NCBI RefSeq assembly: GCF_004614235.1
Contig: NZ_SPVH01000006.1
Coordinates: forward strand, 806,001-870,000
DNA length: 64,000 bases
Source of the DNA: Brevundimonas intermedia
GTDB lineage: Bacteria; Pseudomonadota; Alphaproteobacteria; Caulobacterales; Caulobacteraceae
Reading direction: 5' to 3'
Below the pieces are notes generated by a model. The model was not told where the DNA came from and did no database searches. It saw only the letters and a program-made list of their open reading frames with translations. The position numbers and the translations under genes are program-made. Positions 2-2,370 of this stretch are shown piece by piece (position 1 is the first letter of the stretch; each line of letters opens with the position of its first letter).

Positions 2-643
2 GACCTGTCGATGGCGGAGGTGGCGATGGCTTCCGGCTTCGGCAGCGTGCGACGGTTCAATGAGACATTCCAGGCCCTCTACGGCCGCGCGCCGTCGGAC
101 CTGCGCCGGCGCAAGGTCGAAGGCGAGCCGGGCGGGGCGATCAAGATCGGCCTATCCTATCGCCCGCCCTATGACTGGGCCGCCATGATGACGACGCTGG
201 CGATGCGCGGCGTCGCGGACGAGGCGGTGGTCGATGATGTCTGGACCCGGCGGCTGCGCATCGATGTGGATGGCACGGACGGGGCTGTGACGGTGCGCCC
301 CGCCGCCATGGGCAGGGCGGCGGTCGAGGTGCGGGTCGGCGAGCTGACGGCCTTGCCCGGCGTTCTGGCGCGGGTGAGGCGGGTGTTCGATCTCGCCGCC
401 GATCCCGAGGCGATCACGCGCGACCTGTCAGCCGATCCCGTCCTACGGGCGGCCGTCGAGGCCCGGCCCGGACTGAGGCCTGCGGGCGACTGGATCGACG
501 CGGGCGAGGATGCGCCCAGCGATCGGCTGACGACGACGGATGCGGCCTTGATGGCGCGCGCGGAGCAGTGGCGGCCGTGGCGGGCCTATGGCGCCCTGTA
601 CTGGCCCCTGATCGAGGAGCGGCGACATGACAAAGCAGCCTGA
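2..643 (+). CDS. AraC-HTH/AlkA-type DNA repair protein, 5' cut by window edge and lacking most of the glycosylase core
   Basis: The frame is open at the left edge, so the N-terminus lies outside the window. The visible part starts in an AraC-type helix-turn-helix (ASGFGSVRRFNETF), as in Ada/AlkA fusion regulators. It continues into the AlkA N-terminal domain (SYRPPYDWAAM) up to RPGLRPAGDW. In E. coli AlkA roughly 115 residues follow this point, carrying the helix-hairpin-helix and most of the 3-methyladenine glycosylase fold. Here the chain passes almost at once to the C-terminal helix (ALMARAEQWRPWRAY). A PSD that could match the catalytic-Asp loop remains. The frame is intact, so this looks like an in-frame internal deletion. 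It overlaps the repair gene ogt by 17 bases. It probably still binds DNA; glycosylase activity is doubtful. Confidence 0.75.
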   Translation, partial: DLSMAEVAMASGFGSVRRFNETFQALYGRAPSDLRRRKVEGEPGGAIKIGLSYRPPYDWAAMMTTLAMRGVADEAVVDDVWTRRLRIDVDGTDGAVTVRPAAMGRAAVEVRVGELTALPGVLARVRRVFDLAADPEAITRDLSADPVLRAAVEARPGLRPAGDWIDAGEDAPSDRLTTTDAALMARAEQWRPWRAYGALYWPLIEERRHDKAA

Positions 644-1154
644 GATGCATCTGACCCTGGACCGAATCCCGTCGCCCGTGGGCGAGGTGCTGGTCGTCAC
701 CGACGCGGGCGGGGCGGTGCGGGCGCTGGATTTCCACGACTACGAGGCGCGGCTGCGGCTGCTGCTGCGTCGTCACTATGGCGAGGTCGTCCTGACCGAG
801 GGCCGCGCGCCTCAGCGGGTGCGTCAGGCCGTCGAGGCCTGGTTCGGCGGAGACCTGACCGCCTTCGACGCTGTCGAGGTAAAGACCGGCGGCACGGATT
901 TCCAACGCTCCGTCTGGCGGGCCCTGCGGGATATTCCCGCCGGCGAGACGCGCAGCTACGGCCAGCTGGCGACCGCGATCGGCGCACCCAAGGCGGTGCG
1001 GGCGGTCGGCCTGGCCAACGGCGCCAACCCGGTCGGGGTCATCGTGCCCTGCCATCGCGTGATCGGGGCCAACGGAACGCTGACGGGCTATGCGGGCGGG
1101 CTGGAGCGCAAGCGCTGGCTGCTGGCGCATGAGGCGGGCGGGCGGTTGCTTTAG
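627..1154 (+). CDS. ogt: Methylated-DNA--protein-cysteine S-methyltransferase
   Basis: Suicide repair enzyme that moves the methyl group from O6-methylguanine in DNA to its own cysteine. The 175-residue length fits the Ogt family. The active-site motif PCHRVI is present with the acceptor cysteine at about residue 142. It is preceded by the DNA-binding helix region (SYGQLATAIGAPKAVRAVG) and followed by the GYAGGLERKRWLL tail typical of the family. The start lies inside the end of the upstream AlkA-type gene, so the two repair genes are probably co-transcribed and translationally coupled. The stop overlaps the convergent LamG gene by 4 bases. Confidence 0.95.
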   Translation: MTKQPEMHLTLDRIPSPVGEVLVVTDAGGAVRALDFHDYEARLRLLLRRHYGEVVLTEGRAPQRVRQAVEAWFGGDLTAFDAVEVKTGGTDFQRSVWRALRDIPAGETRSYGQLATAIGAPKAVRAVGLANGANPVGVIVPCHRVIGANGTLTGYAGGLERKRWLLAHEAGGRLL

Positions 1155-1861
1155 CGCCGCGTGAACCGTTCGGGCGGCAGGGCGGCGTGGGTGAAGCGGG
1201 CCCGGCGCACCGCGCCCTTGAAATAGTTCACCCGGTTCATGCGGCAGCCAACCGAGGCGCGACCCGGCCCTTGGGGCTTGAACGGCACGGCATGTTCGCC
1301 CTGCAGCACGCCGTCGACATAGGCCCTGTACATGACGCCGTCGAAGGTCTGGGCGACGTGGAACCACTGGCCGCAAGGGTAGAGGCGCTCGGGAAAGATC
1401 AGGGTGTGGTTGTAGCCGGGGCCGCGCGTGAAGGCGTCCAGGTACCAGCGATCCTGAACCACCCGGATCTCGAACAGGAAGCGCGTCTGGGACGGGGGCT
1501 GACCGGCGGGCGCCTCTTCGGCGAGATGGAACCAGCGCTGCTCGAAGGCGCCGCCGTCGGGCCGAAACAGGGCTTCGAAGGTAAAGGTCTCGGCCCCGGC
1601 CAGCGGGTGATCCTCGATGAACAGGGCGTCGTCCACGCCGTCGAACAGCACCGCGCGACCATAGGGACTGTCGATCAGGACGGGCGCGCCCTCGACGCTG
1701 GTCGCGACCCCGCCGATGTCTGCCAACCGATCAAAGGTCCACACCGTCCGGCGCGGCGCGGCGGTCCCCATCGTCGCACATCCCGGCAGAATCGCGCCCG
1801 CGACGCCCGATGCGCCCAAGGCCATCAGGCGGCGGCGGTCGAGGGGCAGGGCGTCAGGCAT
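1151..1861 (-). CDS. LamG/concanavalin-like domain protein with Tat-type lipoprotein signal
   Basis: 236 residues. The N-terminus has DRRRLMALGASG followed by a lipobox-like LPGC, which suggests Tat-dependent export and lipid attachment. The rest looks like a LamG/concanavalin A-like jelly-roll: it opens with WTFD and contains VLFDGVDDALFIEDHPL, a central FTFEALFRP strand, and WFHVAQTFDGVMYRAYVDG, the usual 'viewer must see the span' pattern of LamG_3 domains. This fold binds carbohydrate in many proteins, but no ligand can be named here. It stands alone on the minus strand, convergent with ogt. The assignment is by motif pattern only. Confidence 0.75.
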   Translation of the reverse strand: MPDALPLDRRRLMALGASGVAGAILPGCATMGTAAPRRTVWTFDRLADIGGVATSVEGAPVLIDSPYGRAVLFDGVDDALFIEDHPLAGAETFTFEALFRPDGGAFEQRWFHLAEEAPAGQPPSQTRFLFEIRVVQDRWYLDAFTRGPGYNHTLIFPERLYPCGQWFHVAQTFDGVMYRAYVDGVLQGEHAVPFKPQGPGRASVGCRMNRVNYFKGAVRRARFTHAALPPERFTRR

Positions 1862-1971: not shown

Positions 1972-2370
1972 ATGAAACTTTCCAATGGCGCGCTGGTGGC
2001 GGTGGTCGATGGCGAAAAGCTGGCCCTGTTCAAGAACACGAACGCCTCGGAGATCAAGCTGACGCCGCTGGAAAATCCCCCGATCGCGGATCGCGTCTCC
2101 GGCTCGGCCGGCCGGCGTTCGAATGAGGCTAATCCCGACAACGATACCCAGGCCGAAGACGGCTTCGCCATGGGCGTCGCAGAGGTGCTGAACAAATGGT
2201 CGGTCACCAACAAGATCGACGAACTGCTGGTGATCGCCGCGCCCAAGACCTTGGGCGAGCTGCGCAAGCACTGGCACAAGGACCTTCAGGCCAAGCTGGT
2301 CGGCGAAATCGCCAAGGATCTGACGGGCCATTCCAGCGACCAGATCGCCGCGGCGATCGACAAGGCGTGA
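1972..2370 (+). CDS. Host attachment family protein
   Basis: 132 residues, soluble, with no signal peptide. The sequence (KLSNGALVAVVDGEKLALFKN near the start, then a disordered stretch rich in N, D and E, then ELLVIAAPKTLGELRKHWHK) matches the host-attachment protein family. That family is named from an Agrobacterium plant-attachment locus, but its biochemical function is unknown. I chose the ATG at 1972 because TGGAG sits 8 bases upstream; longer in-frame starts reach into the divergent gene and lack a ribosome site. A strong intrinsic terminator follows about 60 bases after the stop. Confidence 0.85.
   Translation: MKLSNGALVAVVDGEKLALFKNTNASEIKLTPLENPPIADRVSGSAGRRSNEANPDNDTQAEDGFAMGVAEVLNKWSVTNKIDELLVIAAPKTLGELRKHWHKDLQAKLVGEIAKDLTGHSSDQIAAAIDKA

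Follow-up and report, generated by a model that had tools for sequence, protein, structure and literature searches.

What is left of an AlkA-type protein once its glycosylase core has gone? The question is raised by the first positions of the window, by which we mean the whole stretch of 64,000 nucleotides of Brevundimonas intermedia DNA that was analysed. A sequence-only reading had described here an AraC-type helix-turn-helix (HTH) and a normal AlkA N-terminal domain (AlkA_N) in an open frame, with about 115 residues containing the helix-hairpin-helix (HhH) motif missing, and had suggested a DNA-binding regulator or lesion sensor coupled to ogt. The parts of the locus are listed below; the structural model is that of L066, a protein 94% identical to the one encoded here.

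2 to 643, plus strand: 3' part of a short Ada-AlkA gene, its last 213 codons and stop (translated frame)
2 to 109, plus strand: end part of the AraC-type HTH, protein residues 151-186 (Pfam HTH_AraC/HTH_18)
146 to 490, plus strand: AlkA N-terminal domain, residues 199-313 (Pfam PF06029, E 1e-24; pLDDT 86-96 for residues 201-310 of the L066 model)
242 to 244, plus strand: codon of W231, which aligns with E. coli AlkA Y35 (row alignment, from which the E. coli numbering is taken)
491 to 541, plus strand: short linker replacing the HhH-GPD core, residues 314-330 (alignments)
542 to 637, plus strand: two C-terminal helices, residues 331-340 and 344-362 (alignment, L066 model and superposition)
569 to 589, plus strand: WRPWRAY, equivalent to AlkA 260-266 (alignment)
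627 to 1154, plus strand: ogt, O6-methylguanine-DNA methyltransferase (open reading frame and Pfam)

The window cuts the gene, whose whole open reading frame (L002:5552-6643) encodes 363 amino acids and starts 449 bases 5' of the window, at G000:C6:805552. The frame from 2 to 643 is open, as the ORF listing and the translation confirm, and within it Pfam recovers the end of the HTH and AlkA_N, in keeping with the initial description. In a Pfam scan of the whole protein, an Ada_Zn_binding domain occupies residues 9-73, 5' of the window (PF02805, E 3e-31), and the AraC-type HTH spans residues 108-187 (PF12833, E 3e-23); the NCBIfam Ada model matches residues 5-172 at E 4e-25, with a score far below its cut-off. 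The HTH is thus intact, and the DNA-binding regulator part of the proposal stands. A sensor is also likely, but it is most likely the intact Ada zinc/methyl-acceptor domain rather than the AlkA remnant to which lesion sensing had been assigned. The Ada-domain cysteines C36, C40, C67 and C70 are invariant in all 43 aligned proteins, 23 of them short, and four short proteins from three groups each gave Ada_Zn, HTH and AlkA_N when scanned with Pfam. The nearest named record, from Brevundimonas sp. G8, is 94% identical.

The core itself is absent. HhH-GPD (PF00730) gave no match at E 0.001 in this protein or in three other short ones scanned, and was found in the full-length relative L162. The stretch from RPGLRxxG plus one residue to the first W of WRPW is 26 residues long here versus 152-156 in five full-length relatives, so that some 126-130 residues are missing, somewhat more than first estimated; in full-length relatives this segment includes the hairpin motif and an FPxxD motif. 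The motif around AlkA D238, presumably the catalytic Asp, is gone; the Brevundimonas linker does contain an Asp (PSD), in a region where the alignment carries no confidence. At position 352, the equivalent of AlkA W272, which we take to be the active-site Trp of the last helix, this protein has Pro. Trp occupies that position in 47 of 48 full-length rows versus 1 of 45 short rows, and a count made independently of the alignment, six residues past the motif Tyr, found Trp in 73 of 78 distinct long proteins versus 1 of 98 distinct short ones. The linkers that replace the core vary freely from lineage to lineage. In one Brevundimonas short protein (L226, from G099) the C-terminus has diverged and the linker is unlike those of the other genus members in the same alignment.

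Comparison with sister strains, which had been proposed as a check, shows that the short form is common to the genus. The part of the protein encoded in the window was matched in 122 of 131 Brevundimonas genomes, single-contig ones included, and 120 of these matches form one stretch reaching at least residue 198 of 213, that of G004 passing its own stop near the end. The other two are G066, where the match is split between contig ends, and G001, where a stop interrupts the short gene (L063). No longer form was found among the 131 genomes searched. All 131 have an Ada_Zn domain, and the nine that lack the short protein (L217-L225) encode a classical Ada of 347-361 amino acids with Ada_Zn, HTH and the PCHR methyltransferase motif. 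At 20 loci retrieved from the family's other genera, the protein is 482-518 amino acids long. Ten Brevundimonas genomes (G018, G024, G028, G030, G044, G054, G062, G079, G093 and G111) have a second Ada_Zn frame besides the short protein, nine of these frames being 158-237 amino acids long.

Short forms were also found, in a draw of 385 alphaproteobacterial genomes, in two other families, here coded f70 and f56. Within f70 the short form is present in 54 of 65 genomes of genus g97 (50 matches cover the full query, and four are in pieces or cut by a contig end), and in genus g195 three relatives are full length and a fourth is broken. Six of 11 genomes of the f56 genus g187 have it, and G799, from another genus of f56, has the full-length form. 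An assembly or sequencing deletion, the objection foreseen at the outset, would have to have arisen in 122 of 131 genomes, including single-contig ones, in independent named records and in two further families, and we give it practically no credence. We also considered and rejected a pseudogene for the genus as a whole, on the basis of dN/dS and the conserved overlap with ogt; single broken copies do exist, such as that of G001 and the Ada-AlkA gene of G531 (L216), which has a frame change.

To place these forms relative to one another, we built a careful tree from 56 rows, using the shared region only; the rows dropped from the larger set included several long branches and some diverged short sequences. 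In this tree the short proteins of Brevundimonas group as a single clade (100/99) within full-length Caulobacteraceae, and those of f70 as a second clade (100/100) in a separate, supported region. A single clade for all short forms was rejected (p 0.0109), and a clade of f70 with f56 was not (p 0.216), which together indicate at least two origins. An earlier quick tree of 93 rows did not reject a single origin (p 0.205); that tree was not fully searched, since a constrained search ended 30.7 log units better than the unconstrained tree. Parsimony counts three origins, and the 93-row tree counted four. The core was therefore likely deleted at least twice, and sequence comparison indicates that the change is genus-wide and recurrent rather than a quirk of one strain. 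Another f70 protein, the 452-residue Ada-AlkA at L214:1492-2847 (G731, genus g307), has 113 residues in the core region, a degenerate HhH core, no HhH-GPD match in Pfam and no final Trp; its partly deleted core looks like a half-way stage. Ten further matches in the class, confined to approximately residues 4-206 and lying in frames of 189-235 amino acids, are shorter Ada_Zn and HTH relatives without AlkA_N, and so a sensor can do without the remaining AlkA parts. Among 628 matching plasmid records, five were looked at: four are long forms, of 458-516 amino acids by reading, and one (L235) has a different arrangement, in which a conjugative Methylobacterium indicum plasmid carries adjoining genes for an AlkA_N protein, Ada and a 2OG-Fe(II) oxygenase (L235:2477-5327).

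We next turn to the AlkA parts that were kept, namely AlkA_N and the C-terminal helices, together referred to as the shell. The residue alignment comprised 93 chosen rows, 45 short and 48 long (L214 included), with near-copies, fragments and broken genes excluded. W340, P342, W343 and Y346, the W-PW--Y core, are invariant in all 93. Position 231, which corresponds to AlkA Y35, is Trp in 44 of 45 short rows (the exception is one f56 row) and Tyr in 48 of 48 full-length rows; over all columns compared, this Trp is the strongest gain common to the three short groups. On a tree built without that column, the Tyr-to-Trp change needs three events, the same number as the short form. Position 215 goes from mostly Phe in long rows to mostly Ala in short ones.

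The retained parts are under purifying selection. Median pairwise dN/dS (pairs with dS between 0.15 and 2) across 25 Brevundimonas was 0.10 for Ada, 0.085 for HTH, 0.31 for AlkA_N, 0.22 for the linker and 0.03 for the C-terminal motif; across 18 full-length relatives, which are more diverged, it was 0.175 for Ada, 0.209 for HTH, 0.401 for AlkA_N, 0.059 for the C-terminal motif and 0.326 for the core. The log-identity ratio of AlkA_N to HTH was higher in Brevundimonas short proteins than in full-length ones, at 2.20 versus 2.01, 2.93 versus 2.24 and 3.87 versus 2.60 in HTH identity bins of 0.70-0.78, 0.78-0.85 and 0.85-0.92, respectively, and some relaxation of AlkA_N is therefore possible in that genus. 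No such speed-up was seen in f70 (1.34 and 1.72), and that in f56 is slight (2.50, four pairs). The C-terminal segment overall is also more variable in short Brevundimonas proteins, with an identity of 0.72 versus 0.89 for full-length ones in the 0.78-0.85 bin.

In the structural model, the shell is predicted to stay folded. Mean pLDDT was 84, with blocks of 86-96 over AlkA_N and 82-89 over the C-terminal helices up to residue 360. Residues 195-358 of the model superpose by VIA-align on E. coli AlkA with a Z-score of 15.2 (155 residues aligned, rmsd 2.7 Å), and the alignment reaches AlkA residue 278, so that the last helix is predicted in its AlkA place despite the absent core. With Foldseek alone, the alignment to AlkA covered only about 115 columns; as a yardstick, L093, a full-length relative, scores Z 35.4 across 274 residues. 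Thus, the retained parts are predicted to keep their AlkA places.

If the short protein no longer excises bases, another enzyme might. The genome has three HhH-GPD matches, which by reading are Nth-like, MutY-like and a stand-alone AlkA-type protein of 217 amino acids (L035), the only AlkA-like one of the three; its match to the NCBIfam AlkA model runs from model position 94 on and is below cut-off. L035 has N-terminal and C-terminal parts of its own, including a WRPYRA...LLW terminus, shares 38% identity with the L162 core region, and occurs in 71 relatives without a strong fused match. On these grounds we rejected fission, in which the excised core would have moved to another gene, and take L035 to be a separate paralogue. 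All 56 Brevundimonas drawn have the stand-alone gene, among them all 49 with the short form, as do all 35 short-form f70/g97 genomes searched. In f56 a relative was matched in all six short-form genomes, though weakly (about 35% identity, E 1e-12 to 1e-14; in three, the matched stretch contains a stop). Among 20 full-length controls, the separate gene was present in four, the match lay inside the fused gene only in four, and 12 had none. Since the separate AlkA-type gene is kept, loss of glycosylase activity from the whole cell need not follow.

The fused full-length and stand-alone genes are rarely found together. Across the 193 other Caulobacteraceae genomes of the draw, 105 have a strong fused match only, 71 the stand-alone gene only, three both and 14 neither (Fisher p 2e-34, without correction for kinship). 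These figures count as absent six matches, namely G173, which covers the Ada and HTH part only, and five weaker matches of unlisted extent; with all six counted as present, the numbers are 110 fused only, 70 stand-alone only, four both and nine neither. Genus g32 divides into 26 genomes with the fused gene and 28 with the stand-alone one, none having both. This pattern suggests a redundancy that could have permitted the deletion, and the fused glycosylase most likely became redundant. Presence of the separate gene does not force deletion, as it also occurs in some long-form f70 genomes.

A conserved candidate site, GTCCGAAAACCGCGAGAC, lies at L002:5504-5521, 48 bases 5' of the gene and outside the window, and is also found at full-length Ada-AlkA genes from other Proteobacteria; scanning the window itself gave no occurrence. 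Its core, GTCCGAAAACCGC, stands 48-49 bases 5' of most start codons. Counting distinct proteins with at least 100 bases upstream, we found GTCCGAAAACCGC exactly in 60 of 61 short Brevundimonas upstreams, in 24 of 31 from f70 (the other seven have one mismatch) and in five of six from f56; for full-length genes it was exact in 34 of 82, with 17 more at one mismatch. None of the nine Brevundimonas with a classical Ada has it within one mismatch, a level reached by one of 3780 upstreams in a shuffled control. The site accompanies the fused regulator with or without its core. The L035 locus gave no match within 4 mismatches of the 20-base upstream site, so co-regulation of that gene is unsupported. 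In several of 12 aligned upstreams, GAGACA is followed 17 bases later by CATCCT or CATTCT just 5' of the ATG, which by eye resembles a weak promoter whose leader would be very short.

The short gene and ogt share 17 bases, from the ogt ATG to the stop of the short gene, which bears out the coupling proposed earlier. An ogt-like frame overlaps the gene end in each of the 90 distinct short genes from Brevundimonas and f70 that have 700 or more bases of downstream sequence, and lies near 41 of 71 full-length genes, and the link to ogt is thus probably older than the core deletion. None of the six f56 short genes has an adjacent ogt, so a role in docking Ogt cannot be general. Beyond ogt, the product of window positions 1151-1861 (minus strand) matches Laminin_G_3, a concanavalin-like lectin domain, and that of 1972-2370 (plus strand) matches baeRF family 12/Host_attach (both Pfam).

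We propose, with a probability of roughly 0.75, that the protein senses methylation in the manner of Ada and activates ogt, its glycosylase core having been deleted and its AlkA shell kept as a non-catalytic module. A fused Ada-AlkA regulator would have lost its HhH glycosylase core in the ancestor of Brevundimonas. By analogy with the Ada family, the zinc domain would accept a methyl group from the damaged DNA backbone, and the methylated protein would bind the putative operator, some 48 bases upstream of its start codon, and activate both its own gene and the overlapping ogt. Base excision would be left to the separate 217-residue AlkA-type protein, a presumptive glycosylase. The AlkA N-terminal domain and C-terminal helices would fold together without the core and be kept as a non-catalytic module of the regulator; our guess is that they most likely serve for protein contact or positioning, with RNA polymerase, a second subunit or Ogt as the partner.

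The main rival to this first choice holds that the shell has no function of its own and is a structural relic, kept because deleting more would cost the protein its fold or disrupt the overlap between its gene and ogt. That AlkA_N has the highest dN/dS in the protein (0.31), evolving relatively faster than in full-length proteins, and that linkers differ freely between lineages, would fit such a relic. Persisting purifying selection, the four residues invariant in 93 of 93 rows and the shared Tyr-to-Trp swap do not; moreover, although shell-less Ada_Zn and HTH relatives exist, only the split G066 and the interrupted G001 lack the shell among the 122 matches in the genus. We regard a relic as possible but somewhat doubtful. 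Less probable still, and in our view unlikely, is that the shell still helps to recognise lesions, either by contacting DNA as a component of the sensor or by recruiting the separate glycosylase in trans. The AlkA fold that the shell keeps in the L066 model, and the separate AlkA-type gene in every short-form genome searched (49 Brevundimonas, 35 f70/g97 and, weakly, six f56), are compatible with this. However, in E. coli AlkA, DNA contact lies mostly in the core region, which is missing here, the active-site Trp position has lost its Trp in 44 of 45 short rows while the remaining helix motif is kept, and the separate glycosylase has its own ends and should need no folding partner. We therefore retain the positioning or contact module as our preferred reading of the shell.

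The short protein combines features of several known systems. Like E. coli Ada, it has a methyl-acceptor zinc domain and an AraC-type HTH; Ada ends in a methyltransferase domain, which here is the separate ogt. It shares with E. coli AlkA the N-terminal domain and last helices, on which the model superposes, but lacks the HhH-GPD core. Bacillus subtilis divides the functions between AdaA, an Ada_Zn and AraC-type sensor-activator, and AdaB, an O6-methylguanine methyltransferase. The short protein would work like AdaA with AdaB, yet by descent it is an Ada-AlkA; to our knowledge, AdaA has neither AlkA_N nor the AlkA C-terminal helices.

Closer in architecture is the fused Ada-AlkA of Mycobacterium, in which the Ada A domain is joined to AlkA and Ogt is separate, as here, and which is alkylation-inducible but keeps its glycosylase (PMC7432924). 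The same paper describes the M. smegmatis protein as binding DNA and co-eluting with Ogt, and names residues 329, 383, 440 and 442 as contacts in a docking model (PMC7432924); by position, these probably fall in the part missing here. The complex makes an Ogt contact plausible for the short protein, and the f56 genes without ogt, together with the docking contacts, speak against this as a general role. In a relative, Caulobacter Cada2 is a methylation-switched activator of the adaptive response; it differs from the short protein in having a methyltransferase domain and no four-cysteine domain, and its site consists of GCAA and CGG with a 3-base spacer, not GTCCGAAAACCGC (PMC10957082).

In the parts of the literature accessible to our search we found no description of a core-less Ada-AlkA, and the search returned no paper on an AlkA/Ada alkylation response in Brevundimonas. 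A review of glycosylase domains calls the reason for the likeness of the AlkA N-terminal domain to TATA-box binding protein totally obscure, with no such function confirmed (PMC9266487). Since the core was removed and the N-terminal domain kept, most likely more than once, these proteins offer a clean system in which to ask what that domain does. We tentatively entertain the broader idea, which we consider rather less than an even bet, that the TATA-box-binding-protein-like shell was turned at least twice independently into a non-catalytic regulatory module of the Ada sensor, the Tyr-to-Trp swap at the Y35 position being the recurring adaptation by which the shell can work after core loss. If so, full-length Ada-AlkA, and perhaps AlkA too, would already have used the shell for regulation or contact. 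The finding also illustrates how a fusion of sensor and enzyme can lose the enzyme with the sensor conserved; as a caution for annotation, genes named for AlkA in these bacteria may encode no glycosylase.
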